From: a virus
DNA length: 26,824 bases
Virus record (IMG/VR): IMGVR_UViG_3300042564_002195
Location: 1 to 26,824 of that record
Reading direction: 5' to 3' (one strand)
Below are positions 3,401-26,824 of the stretch, one piece after another. How positions within the stretch are numbered: the stretch's first letter is position 1; every line of letters begins with the position of its first letter. The translations under genes were made by a program, and so were the position numbers. The notes under the pieces were generated by a model that was not told where the DNA came from, ran no database searches, and was given only the letters and a program-made list of their open reading frames with translations.

Positions 3401-6400
3401 ATTGATACCCCAAGTTCCAGACGCTCCAGATCCTGTTAAGGATGGTGAATAACTTGTATAGTTACCTGCATGGAGAACTTGATTACCCCCTTGAGTAAGA
3501 GCGCCCGTTATATTAACATTACCGGAAGCATCAATACGAATACCAGTAGAATTGCTATCACGCCCAAACCACGCATAACCATCATATGCATCAATATACG
3601 CTGTGCCGTTAGTATTTTGCCCGACTCGCAACTGATTATTAATACGGACAAGTCCAGAGACTGTTCCGCCAGTTAAAGGCAAAGAGTATGAATTATAGTT
3701 ACCTGCATGAAGTACTGTATTACCCCCAAATGTAATGCTTGTTTTATTAATTTGAGCACTAGAAGTCCAATTATACGCTCCGTCTAGGCTGTAATAACCA
3801 ATATCAAGCAACGTAGATACATTACCATCACCTGCAATGATAGGAGATGCAGTAGTACTGGCCATACCAATACCAGTCCATAAATTGCCGGTTTCGTAAA
3901 TCCCAATGATTTTCTTTGCATTTGGAAGGCTAGTGCCCCAAGAAATGCGTCCTGTTAAATTACCACCAGCCAAAGGCAAATAAGGACTCAATGCAGAGCT
4001 AGTAATATACCCACTTGGATTAGTAGCATTATAAGGTGTATAACCTAATGCTGTTGTTACATTGCCAAAAGTAATTCCAGAGATATAACCAGAAGGATTG
4101 CTAGAGCTATAGGCATCAGTAATACCATAGCCAGACAATGTTGTAGGTTTACCTGTGACACCACTGAATGGAACAGCTGCAGCACTAGCCACTGATAAGC
4201 TTGATTGAGGGGTCTTAGTCCATAAGTCTGTTGAGCTTACATAAACTAGTGTATCACCGTTTGTAGGATTCTGCGCAGATACATCATGGATCTCATCCAT
4301 CTCGTAACCGTTTTGGATCTTAACCTGAATAGTACCCTGATTAGCATGGCTGTATGTTACAACACCAACATATACCAAATGAATTGGTGCATAAGGTTTA
4401 GTGTTTGTATAACCACCTGCAGTAGTACCACTTAAATATAACTGAGTTCCATCAGGGTATGCAATTGTATTTAATCCAGAAACTGAACCTACAACAACGA
4501 CATAACCATTTTGATTATTTGGAATGTCTGCCTGAACCATACCATAAGTCTGCGCAGAGGTAGAGTCACCCGTAGCGATAGCCTTAGAGACTACTGCTTT
4601 ATTTCCTGCAGCACCACTAATGTACACTACAGTACCTTTAGTTAGTACTCCACCAGTTTCATTACGAACTTGGCTAATTAAATTTCCTGTACTTGCGGCT
4701 GTACCTACGCTTAAATCCCTAATTGTACCTGTAGGGCTAATAATAACACTACCATCGCTAGATGTAATAGCGCTTACTGCATTATCAGCTAAAGTGCCTT
4801 GAGCAGCAGTAGCAAAGTAACCTACATTTTGAGCAGAGGCAGTACCTAGTGTGGGCTTATTAAGAATAGCCGCATCACCTGTTGTAGCATTCCAGTCAGC
4901 ATTAACGTTTACTTCAGCACCTGCAGCAATACCTGCTAACTTAGACTTTTCAGTCGTAGTGTAGTTATTGTCAGTATGCACATAAGCAGAATCGATAACC
5001 GTATTAGCATTGTATCCTTGTACAGATACACCAATAGTTGCTGGTTGTAGGGCAGTATCTGCCTTAGCACCCTGAGCAGCAGTAGCATAGGCTGTACTAT
5101 CAGTAGTAGCCGCAGTACCTAATCCAAGATTAGTTCTTGCACCAGCAGCTGTAGTAGCACCTGTACCACCAGAGCCAATAGCAACTGTACCAATAATATT
5201 CTGAGCAAGTACTTGACCAATACCATAAACATTATACACAAAGGCATCAACTGCCGCTCCTGCACTAGCAGGTACATTTAGTGTAAATGATGTTTCATTA
5301 GTTGCTGTATAATCCGAAGTTCTTAACAGTACACCGTTAACATAAACTTGAATAGAGCCTAGTGGATAAGTTACATTGAATGTAGTTTGTCCAGCAGTGG
5401 CCGTAAAGCTTGTGCGTGAGTATGCACTTGTAGGCAAATTAACTGTTGCCCAATAAGCCGCTGTACCATCAGTTCTCAGGAACTTATCAGCATGAGTAGC
5501 TTGTGGAGGTAAAGCATCTACAGTAGCCCAGGAAGCATTTGTTCCGTCTGTTGTTAAGAATTGTCCATTATGAGTTGCCTGTGCAGGTAACGCATTAATT
5601 GTTTTATTTTTCCATAAATTAGTTGCTGATTCATACTCTAGAATCTGGCCATTAGTAGCTGAACTGATTGTTACATCTGTTAAGCCGTCTAAGTTATATC
5701 CATTAGCTAAAGCTGAAGTACCAAGACCTAGATTAGATCTTGCTGTTACAACGTTAGTTAATTCTGAAAGATTATTACTAGCAAGTAAATAACCATCACC
5801 AGACATATAAGCTGCAACCCATGCAGTACCTGTATAAACTCTCATTCCTTGAAGAGTAGTGTTAAAGTACAATGCACCAACAACTAGGGGATTACCATCG
5901 TTGTCTAATGTTGGGTTAGAGGCCTTTTCACCTAAGTATTTATCATCAAAATTATCAAAGGCAGCTAGAGCTTGATCACGGGCAGCCTCAGCGGCAGCTT
6001 TAGCGATGTTAGCTGTATTAGCACTACTAGCAGCATTAGTAGCAGATGTGTCTGCATTGATAGCTGAAATATTTGCAGCACTAGCAGAGGTACTTGCAGA
6101 AGAAGCAGAGGCTGCAGCATTACTAGCTTGAGTACTTGCAGCTGTTGCTGAAGCGCTTGCGTTAGTAGCAGAAGTACTTGCAGCTGTTGCTGAGTTACTC
6201 GCATTAGTAGCCTGTGTGGTTGCAGTGTTAGCAGACGCAGTGGCACTAGTAGCTGAGTTAGCTGCAGCAGTAGCAGAGGCGCTTGCCTCATCAGCCTTAA
6301 TGCTTGCTGTGTTTGCGTAGCCAGTAACTGTAGTAACTGTATTTGCAGCAGCAATAGAACTAGCTAAGGCATCGTCTGCATAAATTTCTGCGTTAGACTC

Positions 6401-8626
6401 AGAAGTATCAGCAGAGCTAGCAGAGGTAGCGGCATTAGCAGCATAAATACTTGCAGCACTAGCACTGGTAGCCGCATTCGTCTCACTAAGAGCAGCAGCA
6501 TTAGCAGAGTTACCTGCAAGAGTGGCACTTGTGCTAGCTGAGGCAGAACTTGTATTTGCACTTGAAGCAGAGTTAGCAGCATTAGTCTCAGATGTAGCAG
6601 CATTAGCGGCACTTGTAGTTGCACTACTTGCGGCACTGGTTGCTTCAGCAGCTTTAGTAGTTGCTGTTGTGGCTGATCCACTAGCGCTTGTTGCGGAGAC
6701 ACTTGCTTCACTAGCTTTAGTTGTTGCAGTAGCTGCAGCAGTTGTAGCCAATCCTTCGCTTAATGCAGAGGAGGTAGCGCTTGCCGCAGAATTAGTAGCA
6801 CTCACAGCTGCATCACTGGCGCTTGTAGAAGCCTCAGCAGCTTTGGTTGTTGCTGTATTTGCACTAGCCAGAGCATTTGCCTCGGATGTATCTGCGTTAG
6901 CTTCAGAGACACCTGCATTAGCAGCTGAAGTAGCGGAACTAGCAGCTGAGTTAGCAGCATTAGTTGCTGAATTAGCAGAAGCTAAAGCGCTATTAGCTGA
7001 ATTAGTAGCTGAGGTAGCACTTGCTGTTGCACTATTAGCAGAATTAGTTGCTTGTGTAGTTGCTGTAGTCGCAGATGCAGCAGCATTAGTAGCACTTACT
7101 CCAGAGGCCGAAGCATATGAAGAAGCTAAGTCAGCGCTTGTTGCAGCGGCATTCTTATAATTAAGAGCATAGTTCTCAGATGCACTAGCATTAATTTCAG
7201 AACTCTCAGCAGCATTTTCAGAGGCCAGCGCAGCATCAGCGCTTGCATCAGCAGCATTAGCAGAAGTGGCAGCTTCAGCGGCTTTATTAATTGCTGTAGT
7301 GGCATAGCTCTGTGAAGTAGCAGCACTAGAAGCAGCCTGAGAAGCACTCAATGCAGCATTCTGAGAGGCTGTCTGTGCAGTAGCATCATAGAACTGCCAG
7401 CCAGTGGATGTATAAACTTTTAACTTGTTTTCTACGCTGTTAAAATACTCAGCACCAATCATTACTGGATCACCATTACCGTCTAAGGTAGGATCAGCAT
7501 TTAATTCGCCTAAATAGGTACTTCTAAAGGATGCTAAACTAGCTTCAGCGGCAGCCTGAGCAGCAGCAGCATCAGCAGCACTTTGAGCGGCTTCAGCGGC
7601 TTTTAATGTAGCTGTACTAGCTGAAGTAGAAGCAGAGGTAGCACTAAGAACTGCTTGGGCAGCACTTGCAGACGCTTCTGTAGCTTTAGTTGCAGCAGTA
7701 GCAGCACTGTTAGAAGCTTCAGAGGCTTTTGTTGTAGCGGTTGATGCACTAGCGCTCGCTGAGTTCTTTGAAACCAAAGCATCAGCTTGACTAGCGGCAG
7801 CTGCAGTAGCACTATTGGTAGCACTTGTAGCCTGTGTAGTAGCTGTAGTAGCTGAAATAGCAGCTTGGTTAGCACTTGTGTTAGCACTTGTAGCACTATT
7901 AAGAGCAGATGTTGCACTAGCTGCAGCATTGTCTTCACTGTTGTCTGCATTAGTAGCACTTGTAGCGGCACTTGCAGCACTTAGACTTGCAGCTAATGCT
8001 TGAGAGTTTGCATTAGTGGAGCTTGCTAAAGCAGATGAGGCAGATGCTTGAGCTTCATTACGATAGAGCAAAGCATTAGCTTCTGAACTTGCAGCAGCAT
8101 CCTCACTAGCCGCAGCATCAGCAGCAGATAATTGAGAATTGATAGCACTGTCTTCTGAGGCATCTGCATAGTTACTTGATTCTAAGGCACTAGCTGCTGA
8201 GTTAGTTGCACTTTGTGAAGAGGCATTAGCTTGAGCAGCAGCAGTGACTGCACTCTGAGCAGCAGCATTGGCGCTAGCACTTGCAGCACCTGCACTAATA
8301 GAAGAGTTACTTGCGCTTGTAGCAGATGCAGCAGCGCTATTACTAGCGGAAGTAGCTGAGGTAGCTGCAGCAGCAGCAGACGCAACAGCTAAGGCTGACT
8401 TTTCAGCAATTGAGGCTAGCTCGTCAGAAAATTCTTGAGCAGTACCTGTGTACCCATTTTGAACAGCAATTTCGTATGCACTATAGCCTTGTGCACCTTG
8501 GCCACCAGTACGAGACAAAGACAATACATAGTCAACCGTCTCTACTGTTAAAATATTATTTTGAGTTGTTAAGTCTAATGTAATTGCATTAGGGTTAACT
8601 GTAACTTCATAATTTTGTGTAGCCAT
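473..8626 (-). CDS. Giant long tail fibre with Ala/Ser/Thr stalk and C-terminal S74 autochaperone (2717 aa)
   Basis: This is a receptor-binding fibre. In order: residues 1-70 are an attachment domain with GGQGAQGYSAYEIAVQNG, a common fibre N-terminal motif. Residues ~70-365 and ~425-885 are stalks of Ala/Ser/Thr/Asn with xxSATSAxxSA periodicity, as in lambda side tail fibres. Two copies of a ~45-residue module (YLGE...NPTLD...ALYFNT...VYTGTAW) follow the stalk halves at ~370 and ~893. Further on are SNLGLGT repeats, a TAGQTTFNV...IQVYVNGVLL beta domain, and VLHAGNY repeats. Seven copies of a motif like FRAPIFYDSNDTAFYVDP lie between ~1860 and ~2500. The last 119 residues are a Peptidase_S74 intramolecular chaperone: SDVRLK gives Ser2599 and Lys2604, followed by GMIAQEVE and FPELV. 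Family knowledge predicts self-cleavage just before Ser2599. The start follows AGAGGTATAAT; the upstream gene stops 1 nt before. Confidence 0.93.
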   Translation of the reverse strand: MATQNYEVTVNPNAITLDLTTQNNILTVETVDYVLSLSRTGGQGAQGYSAYEIAVQNGYTGTAQEFSDELASIAEKSALAVASAAAAATSATSASNSAAASATSASNSSISAGAASASANAAAQSAVTAAAQANASSQSATNSAASALESSNYADASEDSAINSQLSAADAAASEDAAASSEANALLYRNEAQASASSALASSTNANSQALAASLSAASAATSATNADNSEDNAAASATSALNSATSANTSANQAAISATTATTQATSATNSATAAAASQADALVSKNSASASASTATTKASEASNSAATAATKATEASASAAQAVLSATSASTSASTATLKAAEAAQSAADAAAAQAAAEASLASFRSTYLGELNADPTLDGNGDPVMIGAEYFNSVENKLKVYTSTGWQFYDATAQTASQNAALSASQAASSAATSQSYATTAINKAAEAATSANAADASADAALASENAAESSEINASASENYALNYKNAAATSADLASSYASASGVSATNAAASATTATTQATNSANSATASATSATNSANSALASANSATNAANSAASSATSAANAGVSEANADTSEANALASANTATTKAAEASTSASDAAVSATNSAASATSSALSEGLATTAAATATTKASEASVSATSASGSATTATTKAAEATSAASSATTSAANAATSETNAANSASSANTSSASASTSATLAGNSANAAALSETNAATSASAASIYAANAATSASSADTSESNAEIYADDALASSIAAANTVTTVTGYANTASIKADEASASATAAANSATSATASANTATTQATNASNSATAASTSATNASASATAASTQASNAAASASSASTSASAANISAINADTSATNAASSANTANIAKAAAEAARDQALAAFDNFDDKYLGEKASNPTLDNDGNPLVVGALYFNTTLQGMRVYTGTAWVAAYMSGDGYLLASNNLSELTNVVTARSNLGLGTSALANGYNLDGLTDVTISSATNGQILEYESATNLWKNKTINALPAQATHNGQFLTTDGTNASWATVDALPPQATHADKFLRTDGTAAYWATVNLPTSAYSRTSFTATAGQTTFNVTYPLGSIQVYVNGVLLRTSDYTATNETSFTLNVPASAGAAVDAFVYNVYGIGQVLAQNIIGTVAIGSGGTGATTAAGARTNLGLGTAATTDSTAYATAAQGAKADTALQPATIGVSVQGYNANTVIDSAYVHTDNNYTTTEKSKLAGIAAGAEVNVNADWNATTGDAAILNKPTLGTASAQNVGYFATAAQGTLADNAVSAITSSDGSVIISPTGTIRDLSVGTAASTGNLISQVRNETGGVLTKGTVVYISGAAGNKAVVSKAIATGDSTSAQTYGMVQADIPNNQNGYVVVVGSVSGLNTIAYPDGTQLYLSGTTAGGYTNTKPYAPIHLVYVGVVTYSHANQGTIQVKIQNGYEMDEIHDVSAQNPTNGDTLVYVSSTDLWTKTPQSSLSVASAAAVPFSGVTGKPTTLSGYGITDAYSSSNPSGYISGITFGNVTTALGYTPYNATNPSGYITSSALSPYLPLAGGNLTGRISWGTSLPNAKKIIGIYETGNLWTGIGMASTTASPIIAGDGNVSTLLDIGYYSLDGAYNWTSSAQINKTSITFGGNTVLHAGNYNSYSLPLTGGTVSGLVRINNQLRVGQNTNGTAYIDAYDGYAWFGRDSNSTGIRIDASGNVNITGALTQGGNQVLHAGNYTSYSPSLTGSGASGTWGINISGSAVLLTSTQGNWNSTGVINNVVGMLGWKNYSNSHVIFDASASTTPSGGACNNTNPQNNWTGTYPTLMGWNGSNTYGVRVDSARVADSAGSAGSVDFANLTNKGSGTGTYTTSGDYRAPIFYDSPDTSFYVNPSDISRFSKLAIGSVDYSSGMQVGSLALGNVGTNYHYTSGWSGSMNGGILANCADNWEFVVHDSAHRLASPFVFWGGGSNYIEMGRDLGWGTTPIFATASFRAPIFYDSNDTAFYVDPNSNSYLNTLNAAFTNFRAHIDVYGPIYSYKNDSGYILQSFNQSAGNPAQFNIRHSLGDTIIENARGVIYENSTFSQANNSYRAPIFYDSNNTAFYVDPASGSNIGSWTSNSVTNIQTGSAAAVWQQITNTDASGTYAYLQLSASGAGNGYLIKNRTTGNSVSNQSLYLWNDPGPIEFVPAGTASLRTTISTGGSMTVATDVRTPIFYDSGNTSGYADLGNGTVRAYAASGGQGGFTVADTGGFLTYRITTNNSGNGWSWRFTTNEAVATSFETFFSVGYDSGIAQVSGTNPSFRAPIFYDSNDTNYYLDPSSSGVSLRIGGAIQSNHTAWTGEMNKIQWHGSSLYFQNMNDGIFIFRNSNGAEPYTLYANGNGTASGSWRSPIFYDSNNTNYYVDPEGISSLYGLAIRGDQSPTDTSNQIFFWSAGNTTTSAIGFKNNGGNFPNPTGQGDGYNTYLTMDSVGRGWVFRRGVGGSDFSSAYTSGWILNNGIWQSNGDMRAPIFYDANDTAYYTDQSGGSSHRYQVLRGAWNASPFGAEQFTIRTNYPSYCLRNTDTGSYWLVHHAADQTINWYGGAGGVDGNNWTRNLYLDMSGNLTARNNITAYSDVRLKTNIREINNPLEKVKKLRGVYFDWKETGIPSVGMIAQEVELVFPELVLTSNSSKPGEQTSKETKSLDYSKIVSVLVEAIKEQDTEVTTLRSQLQQQQSELDELKSLVKSLLANR

Positions 8627-9101: not shown

Positions 9102-9560
9102 TTAATCAATTGAATAAATTAAACCTCGGTTTCTCTTTATCCAGCCTTGTTTTAGTAACACTCGATTGAATGTTTCATGGTTATCTAGTTCACTAGACGT
9201 AACTACTAGACGAATATCCTTTTCTCTAGCAGCCTCTATCATTGCTTCATGGACAAGAATTAATGCTTTTACAGCAGAATATCCAGATAAGCTACAATGG
9301 TAATATAATTGATACAATACTTTTTCTCTAGAATGCAGATATGGTCTAGTTGCTTTTGCAGCTATCCAACCAACTAGTTCATCATTGTATTTAACAATCC
9401 TGAAGAAATCACCACGTTTAGCAAGAGCTATCAGGTTTTCCCTACAGTAAACTTCATCTATTCCGATTTCATCTAATTCATAATGACTAAACAATTCTAA
9501 TGAAATATCTAGACATTTATCGATTTCTTCTAATGTTCTTATTTTATCTATTAATATCAT
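9102..9560 (-). CDS. GNAT-family N-acetyltransferase-like protein (152 aa)
   Basis: The fold signature is that of GNAT acetyltransferases, which move the acetyl group of acetyl-CoA onto an amine. A helical N-terminus (LEEIDKCLDISLELF) leads to strands IVKYNDELVGWIAA, matching the substrate-side beta hairpin. YQLYYHCSLSGYSAVKAL then occupies the CoA pyrophosphate-loop position, followed by the helix HEAMIEAAREK. DIRLVVTSSELDNHETFNRVLLKQGW then matches the usual C-terminal motif (strand, DN..., gfxxxG). The glycine-rich Q/RxxGxG/A loop is only loosely kept (LSGYSA), so activity is not certain. The target is unknown; modification of a tail protein or host surface precursor is possible. It interrupts the chaperone-fibre gene order. 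The start ATG at 9560 lacks a normal binding site: the nearest is AGGT 12 nt upstream, at the foot of the hairpin element. Confidence 0.78.
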   Translation of the reverse strand: MILIDKIRTLEEIDKCLDISLELFSHYELDEIGIDEVYCRENLIALAKRGDFFRIVKYNDELVGWIAAKATRPYLHSREKVLYQLYYHCSLSGYSAVKALILVHEAMIEAAREKDIRLVVTSSELDNHETFNRVLLKQGWIKRNRGLIYSID

Positions 9561-9571
9561 ATATAATATAT

Positions 9572-9613
9572 TACCTAGGGGAGCCTAGGATCTCTCTTTA
9601 GCGTCCCCTGGTA
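9572..9613 (-). repeat. Hairpin regulatory element, copy A (42 nt)
   Basis: On the minus strand this reads TACCAGGGGA, CGCTAAAGAGAGATC, CTAGGC, TCCCCTAGGTA. CCAGGGGA can pair with TCCCCTAGG (one bulged A), giving an 8-bp stem that presents CGCTAAAGAGAGATC in a ~17-20 nt loop. It matches copy B at 40 of 43 aligned positions; the loop and both stem arms are invariant and the few changes fall in one short segment. It lies between the stop of the fibre chaperone gene and the acetyltransferase ATG and is followed by a TATTATATA box. Function is unknown: a promoter with hairpin, an RNA-processing site or a translational regulator are all possible. Confidence 0.8.
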
Positions 9614-25345: not shown

Positions 25346-25591
25346 TTACTTACTATCACTAAACAAGTGCTTGTTATTTTCTTGGAAGTCATCAAGTACT
25401 TTACGTACTGTATGTAGTACAGATAATGTTTCCATAATCTCTTTACCTACTTGACTATCTTTATCGAAGTCTTGAAATCTTTCAAATGATTTACGAATAC
25501 TAATATCAACACTACGTCTCATATGACGGAATGTAGTTTTCATAACAAATGACTTACTGAATGGTGGTTTATCTTCTTTATTATCAACCAT
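25346..25591 (-). CDS. Unknown small protein between tube protein and gpG (81 aa)
   Basis: I do not recognise this protein. It is charged and probably helical: MVDNKEDKPPFSKSF, a basic segment KTTFRHMRRSVDISIRKSF, an acidic patch QDFDKDSQ, then MXTLXXXXXVRKVLDDFQEN-type amphipathic helix near the C-terminus (residues ~53-72). There is no signal peptide, membrane segment or metal site. The ATG at 25591 follows AAGGATAATT, a good binding site, and hairpin element copy B lies 27 nt upstream of it. The gene ends 17 nt before gpG, so it is probably cotranscribed with the chaperones. Lambda has no gene at this position. An assembly role is possible from context, but a small accessory gene is as likely. 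Confidence 0.72.
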   Translation of the reverse strand: MVDNKEDKPPFSKSFVMKTTFRHMRRSVDISIRKSFERFQDFDKDSQVGKEIMETLSVLHTVRKVLDDFQENNKHLFSDSK

Positions 25592-25617: not shown

Positions 25618-25660
25618 TACCTAGGGGAGGCCTCAGATCTCTCTTTAGCGTCCCCTGGTA
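25618..25660 (-). repeat. Hairpin regulatory element, copy B (43 nt)
   Basis: Minus strand: TACCAGGGGA, CGCTAAAGAGAGATC, TGAGGCC, TCCCCTAGGTA, then GTATTATATAGTA. The stem arms and the 15-nt loop core are identical to copy A. Differences are confined to the segment beside the 3' arm. It begins directly after the T-run of the tube-gene terminator and ends 26 nt before the ATG of the 81-residue gene. The tandem of terminator, hairpin and AT-rich box suggests the start of a new transcript or a processing point, which is inference. Confidence 0.8.
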
Positions 25661-25681
25661 AAAAGGGGAAATTAATCCCCT
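25660..25681 (-). terminator. Intrinsic terminator after the tail tube gene
   Basis: On the minus strand AGGGGA-TTAATT-TCCCCT forms a 6-bp stem with a 6-nt loop, followed by a run of T. It lies 6 nt after the tail tube stop codon. It would end or reduce transcription after the highly expressed tube protein, so that the downstream chaperones and tape measure are made in smaller amounts. Confidence 0.85.
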
Positions 25682-25687
25682 AAGCCA

Positions 25688-26239
25688 TTAAGATGCGTTT
25701 ACAGTTGCTGGACCGTAGAACTGGCTTTGTACAGACAAAGTCAAAGTTGCTTGGTTAGCGTCTGTTAACTGTGGGCTTACTAGCAAAGCTTCTAACTTAC
25801 CAACGAAGTAGAAGTTAGAGTTAGCACCAGCACCTAGACCAGTAGCATTGGTCTCAAGGCTAGCAGGCTTAGAGTTCAAGAGGGAGAACTGGAAAGCATA
25901 TTGCTTACCGTCACCAACTCTAGCACCTAGACCACCTACAGTTGTAGGATCCCACTCGGAAGGCACGTAGTTAATCGTGAGTTCGAGGTTAGGAGCGTCA
26001 GATTGACCTTGAATCTGCTGTGATGTTGCTGAACCATAAACAGGAACGTTAACAATGTTAGCAGGAGTACCGATTTGTGGGAACTCACGAACGTTCTTGA
26101 TTTCTTTGAATGCTGTATCATCAGCAAACAAAGCTACTAATTCTGATAGTGTATCAGCTGAAGTAATATTTGTGATAGCGGTAGTATTAACTGCGAGAGC
26201 AGAAAAGATACCAGCGCCAATTGAAGTAATGTGTGCCAT
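25688..26239 (-). CDS. Major tail tube protein (183 aa)
   Basis: This is the subunit that stacks in rings around the tape measure to form the tail tube. Evidence is position (after the terminator protein, before the chaperones), size typical of lambda gpV-class tube proteins, and a beta-rich sequence: FKEIKNVREFPQIGTPANIV, then VPVYGSATSQQIQGQSDAPN, LELTINYVPSEWDP, YAFQFSLLNSKPAS, FYFVGKLEALLVSPQLTDAN and a final QATLTLSVQSQFYGP. The N-SQQIQGQ...L.LT.NYVP segment is typical of the tube family's central beta sheet. It has an ATG at 26239, after GGAGAATAAATAAC. A strong terminator follows the gene. Confidence 0.9.
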   Translation of the reverse strand: MAHITSIGAGIFSALAVNTTAITNITSADTLSELVALFADDTAFKEIKNVREFPQIGTPANIVNVPVYGSATSQQIQGQSDAPNLELTINYVPSEWDPTTVGGLGARVGDGKQYAFQFSLLNSKPASLETNATGLGAGANSNFYFVGKLEALLVSPQLTDANQATLTLSVQSQFYGPATVNAS

Positions 26240-26647: not shown

Positions 26648-26824
26648 TTAAACTCCCGCTAAAGAGAGTACAACTATGAACTCATCCTTTGAAATAATAT
26701 TACAACCGTATTCTACGGAATCAATTGTTACCCGAGAGTAGCGACTGAAATTAATTGTTTTATCATTTTTAATTGTAAGAGAAGTTGTTGTTACAGGAAT
26801 TCCAGACTCATAAGTTTTAGACAT
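26648..26824 (-). CDS. Small phage protein at window edge (58 aa, possibly complete)
   Basis: The frame is open from the last base of the window and starts with ATG there: MSKTYESGIPVTTTSLTIKN, then FSRYSRVTIDSVEYGCNI and KDEFIVVLSLAGV before the TAA. It is beta-rich and I do not recognise it. The binding site would lie outside the window, so the ATG may be the true start or an internal Met of a longer protein. It ends 1 nt before the tail terminator ATG (TAATATG), so it belongs to the same operon. Connector, neck or small tail protein genes are usual at this place. Confidence 0.65.
   Translation of the reverse strand: MSKTYESGIPVTTTSLTIKNDKTINFSRYSRVTIDSVEYGCNIISKDEFIVVLSLAGV
26657..26668 (-). 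promoter_or_regulatory. 12-nt complement of the hairpin-element loop, next to the tail terminator ribosome binding site
   Basis: CTCTCTTTAGCG on the minus strand is the exact reverse complement of CGCTAAAGAGAG in both hairpin elements. It runs directly into GGGAG, the ribosome binding site of the tail terminator gene. A 12-bp RNA pairing would cover the edge of that site. It is also coding (VLSLA in the 58-residue protein), so it may be coincidence. Confidence 0.35.

Follow-up and report, generated by a model that had tools for sequence, protein, structure and literature searches.

The promoters of phages T7 and SP6 are read by a cognate RNA polymerase that the phage itself encodes, recur in many copies in the direction of the genes and follow a 23-bp layout from -17 to +6, in which a C at -7 and a core of the type (C/G)CTA(A/T)A are followed by a G at +1 and a purine-rich start. 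In T7, the RNase cleavage sites R6.5 and R13, a strong and a weak one, respectively (PMC5592923), are found together with the promoters phi6.5 and phi13 ahead of late genes. Folding of the T7 promoter regions placed phi6.5 inside a predicted hairpin and phi13 in one arm of another, and in both cases the hairpin is formed by read-through RNA only. Here we analyzed a stretch of 26,824 nucleotides of viral DNA (referred to as the window), a fragment of a long-tailed phage in which all tail genes, encoding the major tail protein, the tape measure and the tail fibres, lie on the minus strand. Two minus-strand elements located between genes, copy A (9613..9572) and copy B (25660..25618), combine the promoter layout of T7 and SP6 with a hairpin of the kind seen at phi6.5 and phi13, and each is very probably a late promoter, which probably acts as a processing hairpin as well.

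The initial annotation had described A and B as a repeated hairpin with an invariant loop, CGCTAAAGAGAGATC. The two copies indeed agree in 40 of 43 columns when aligned from TACC to GGTA, differing by two substitutions and one gap, and CGCTAAAGAGAGATC occurs exactly twice in the window, for which about 0.7 matches would be expected even with three mismatches allowed. A third match to the core, CGCTAAAGAGAGTAC at 26657-26671 on the plus strand with two mismatches, overlaps a gene end in antisense, lacks the upstream half and was discarded as a chance match. As to its nature, most of the supposed loop turned out to be a T7-type promoter core; the stem runs on into it, leaving the tetranucleotide GAGA as the actual loop. 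A TATTATATA box said to follow the element is not conserved, A/T-rich leaders of varying sequence being found at this position in relatives. The absence of a matching named RNA motif was confirmed by an Rfam scan of the whole window, which returned none at the gathering threshold, and the further copies named beforehand as a test of the element were found: the 18-base core GGACGCTAAAGAGAGATC is present exactly at 50 loci in IMG/VR, in two settings, either after the major tail gene, as at B, or before the acetyltransferase-like gene, as at A. When the B region was compared with named phages at the nucleotide level, a single short match of 70% identity was obtained, to EBPR siphovirus 1.

In order to compare the core with described promoters we lined it up with T7 promoters, aligned at their annotated +1, and with SP6 promoters located in the genome of that phage. 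In this register the core reads taccaggggacgctaaa followed by GAGAGA, and its consensus is the same as that of SP6 at 12 of 15 positions between -13 and +2, while SP6 and T7 share 10 of 15. Promoter A (TACCAGGGGACGCTAAA followed from +1 by GAGAGA) thus spans 9591..9613 and promoter B 25638..25660, both on the minus strand, with the G of CTAAAG as the predicted start (9596 and 25643). They differ from the T7 and SP6 promoters in belonging to a new sequence class, ACCAGGGGACGCTAAAGAGAGA, in occurring in long-tailed phages and in that two of the copies lie within a hairpin. No description of these promoters came up in the literature searched, though one may exist elsewhere.

Searching with the pattern [AG]GGNNNCG[CT]TAAAG, we found six sites in the near relative G001, which is about 91-97% identical to the window over the main shared blocks, as well as five in G002, six in G003 and 15 each in the cultured phages DSS3_VP1 and DSS3_PM1, all of them in gene direction, against a shuffled-sequence expectation of about 0.1-0.2 sites. 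Across the near relatives of 57-80 kb there are three to six sites each, again without exception in gene direction. The sites in G001 include one before a gene for a 160-aa protein (59256), one upstream of the terminase region (58636), the counterpart of copy B before the tape-measure module (41563), the counterpart of copy A ahead of the module with the acetyltransferase and fibre genes (25365) and one just 3' of the polymerase gene (5020), a placement like that of T7 phi1.1A after gene 1. Broader patterns gave mostly chance matches without hairpins, with the exception of orthologous B sites. One G001 site, the promoter-like GACAAGGTGACGCTAAAGCAGAG, lies inside the polymerase gene (G001:C1, about 6278-6300, minus strand) and is also seen at the same place in G003, G005, G008 and G009; it may reflect coding constraint (DKVTLKQR) or be an internal promoter.

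A T7-type RNA polymerase (PF00940, about 722-737 aa, E about 1e-80) is encoded by all nine of the larger relatives (40-80 kb). Its gene lies outside the 26.8-kb window and is present in the near relatives. The G001 enzyme keeps the T7 catalytic residues D537, K631, Y639, H811 and D812, as well as R746, while the position of T7 N748 is occupied by K, where SP6 has R. Apart from this enzyme, G001 encodes a 1478-aa fusion protein (L089:5302-9738, minus strand; G001:C1:45302-49738) that joins a Phage_Mu_F-like minor head domain (residues 148-245) to a divergent single-subunit RNA polymerase (ssRNAP) domain (residues 1059-1434) with the motifs DGRGR, DASSSG, K-x7-Y and HDAF. Such a fusion with ssRNAP motifs is encoded by most of the relatives searched and by the two DSS3 phages; in DSS3_VP1 and DSS3_PM1 its annotation goes no further than minor head protein-like or head morphogenesis protein. 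The fusion probably serves as a virion RNA polymerase.

The nearest cultured relatives are DSS3_VP1 and DSS3_PM1 (Naomviridae, Noahvirus), with T7-type polymerases that are 49% identical, and the source of the window is most likely an uncultured relative of the Naomviridae phages. The family is said to have been described by Rihtman and colleagues in 2021. The promoters of DSS3_VP1 and DSS3_PM1 have much in common with A and B, namely a homologous polymerase, a core that fits the same search pattern and a site in the place of B, which in DSS3_VP1 sits between the major tail gene and a homologous gene for a protein of about 80 aa and has a different sequence. The promoter consensus of the two phages, taataggttacgttaaa followed by GAGGGG, is unlike the core in the window, the differences lying in its upstream and middle bases. 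The papers searched contained no published account of the DSS3 promoters either. A homologous polymerase in the relatives, repeated core sites in gene direction and the DSS3_VP1 site at the position of B together argue that the core at A and B is very probably the promoter of the phage's own T7-type RNA polymerase, which lends strong evidence to one of the options that the initial annotation had offered. The DNA of both cultured phages contains uracil, which in DSS3_VP1 replaces thymine, a deaminase being used for this (PMC12697855). G001 carries a gene of the dCMP/cytidine deaminase family (L090:16460-16876, minus strand), and taken together with the uracil DNA of DSS3_VP1 this suggests that the phage group of the window may share the uracil-DNA chemistry.

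Promoter B is preceded on the minus strand by the major tail protein gene (25688..26239) and an intrinsic terminator (25660..25680; GGGGATTAATTTCCCC and then a T-run) whose T-run adjoins the promoter. A terminator directly before the promoter is also seen, by eye, in most close relatives, while at A no terminator was found upstream of the element. Downstream of promoter B lies a gene for an 81-aa protein of unknown function (25346..25591, minus strand). It is not cargo: DSS3_VP1 has a homologue (35% identity) at the same position. The gene downstream of promoter A (9102..9560, minus strand; 152 aa) had been called an acetyltransferase. Its order of secondary-structure elements is GNAT-like, and the fold matches are weak: the best are GNAT acetyltransferases at an E-value of only 0.01, obtained with a low-confidence model (pLDDT 63). 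Further along, the long tail-fibre gene region (5000-8400) features short alanine/serine-rich repeats, many of them in 21-base steps.

Hairpin A (9572..9613) and hairpin B (25618..25660), both on the minus strand, have the same design. The promoter from -17 to +2 forms the 5' arm, GAGA the loop, and the bases after +6, which complement the promoter, the 3' arm (TCCTAGGCTCCCCTAGGTA in A, with a 1-nt bulge, and TCTGAGGCCTCCCCTAGGTA in B). RNA folding upheld the claimed hairpins as strong (-19.8 kcal/mol for A and -23.2 kcal/mol for B, z about -3.3 for both). No U-run follows the 3' arm on the coding strand, as would be looked for in an intrinsic terminator. Between -17 and +35, 13-14 upstream-downstream pairs are expected at A and B versus 2.4-5.9 at the other G001 sites. 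Because other promoters in the same genomes have no hairpin, promoter and hairpin are separate layers, and the promoter does not need the hairpin; it is therefore not tenable to view the element as an RNA hairpin whose loop is invariant, since that loop is a promoter core that also occurs alone.

To avoid selecting by motif, we surveyed the hairpin in the regions downstream of major tail gene orthologues that had been found by protein. It is present in nearly all close relatives, with z-scores of -3.5 to -6.9 against shuffled 3' sides at 19 of the 22 sites examined. In a more distant lineage (L179, L199, L204) the hairpin is weak (z -1.1 to -1.4) and forms in another register, and downstream of still more distant orthologues we found no such promoter, often a terminator-like hairpin alone. 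Formal pair counting showed 93.5% of cells to be paired; a single pair varies in both arms, by a double change from G-C to A-U, in 4 of 23 sequences, and the observed covariation score was reached by 32 of 500 shuffles of the 3' letters. This test has little power, since the promoter constitutes the 5' arm and is nearly fixed. Where the promoter does change, the 3' arm follows in some lineages, GACGC being found with GGC and GACAC or GACAT with GGTG or AGTG; in one lineage CCAGAGG is matched by CCTTTGG in the other arm, and in one the outer stem is perfect and free of bulges. In DSS3_VP1 and DSS3_PM1 the situation is different: complementarity between upstream and downstream sequence at their sites (15 each) is mostly not significant, and many sites have a stem-loop from near +1 rather than a hairpin that overlaps the promoter. 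These stem-loops, at or near +1 after many of the predicted promoters, resemble the T7 phi10 leader.

Promoter identity, copy number, orientation, the co-encoded polymerase and the strength and conservation of the hairpin were computed directly. From these we infer a start site and a cleavage with its purpose, as follows. The phage's own T7-type polymerase would bind from -17 to about -5 and initiate at the G of CTAAAG, so that the RNA would begin with GAGAGAUC; the transcript from copy B would serve the tail module and that from copy A the module of acetyltransferase and tail-fibre genes. Transcripts that start at the promoter itself lack the 5' arm, so that the full hairpin can form only in read-through RNA or in DNA. 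Accordingly folded RNA would be that coming from an upstream promoter, with a GAGA-capped hairpin of about 16 bp, which probably marks it for cutting by an enzyme of the RNase III type; RNase III is presumably what cleaves the other R sites of T7. Cutting would separate the upstream from the downstream messages and leave the upstream message with a structured 3' end.

The T7 precedent is the reason why we take the hairpin to be a probable processing site, and it makes the RNA-processing option of the initial annotation plausible, with the cleavage itself resting on analogy. A and B possess the stable promoter-overlapping hairpin in read-through RNA that a site of the R6.5/R13 type requires, and they too stand before late genes. 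They differ from phi13 and phi6.5 in that the promoter makes up the 5' arm, the loop is GAGA and the cleavage is putative. The terminator directly upstream of B counts against processing, as less read-through RNA is to be expected there. By this analogy, the odds that the hairpin is an RNase III-type processing site on read-through RNA appear about even.

The alternative that fares best accepts the promoter and sees in the hairpin a stability element, which would shield the 3' end of the upstream RNA against exonucleases, or hide a ribosome site in the read-through RNA, without any cleavage. A strong GAGA-capped hairpin between genes would suit such a role, as would the missing terminator upstream of A and the stem-loops with which DSS3_VP1 promoter transcripts, like that of T7 phi10, often start. 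However, the ribosome site at B (AAGGATAATTATG) is well downstream of the hairpin, and an uncut hairpin by itself makes no 3' end, so we consider this reading possible but doubtful.

Far less probable, in our estimation very unlikely, is that the hairpin extrudes as a DNA cruciform and acts as the promoter of the divergent polymerase fused to a head protein, which is probably virion-borne, in the manner of phage N4. The virion RNA polymerase of N4 uses extruded hairpins, which have a short stem (7 bp in the P2 complex that was solved) and a 3-base loop and lie upstream of +1 (PMC4496689). The coincidence of promoter and hairpin and the wide presence of the fusion in the relatives searched and both DSS3 phages speak for such a likeness. 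Stem size, loop size and start position do not: the stem at A and B is about 16 bp, its loop has four bases in place of three, and the start lies inside the hairpin. Furthermore, hairpins of this kind are few or absent at the sites of DSS3_VP1 and DSS3_PM1, although both phages possess the fusion; the genes served by A and B are late ones; and promoters of the T7/SP6 type, which the core matches, are read as duplex DNA. Highly improbable, too, is a combination in which one DNA element serves two phage polymerases, as duplex for the T7-type enzyme and as extruded hairpin for the virion-borne fusion polymerase; if true, it would couple early and late transcription. Least credible is a mobile cassette of promoter and stem-loop that helps small genes to insert, as in T4-type phages (PeSL), a likeness drawn in the initial annotation and suggested by two near-identical copies in one genome and the accessory-looking gene after A, since both positions are fixed in the relatives seen, that of B, between the major tail gene and the following gene of the tail module, across the family and together with its downstream gene even in DSS3_VP1, and sigma-70-type promoters are lacking at B and matched near A only at the rate of shuffled sequence.

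With the core read as a promoter of the phage's own polymerase, the sites provide a testable map of late promoters in an uncultured group of Naomviridae-related phages, along with a promoter specificity that is new for a T7-type polymerase. Copies A and B would add, besides T7, a further case in which a promoter and a probable processing hairpin are laid out on the same bases.
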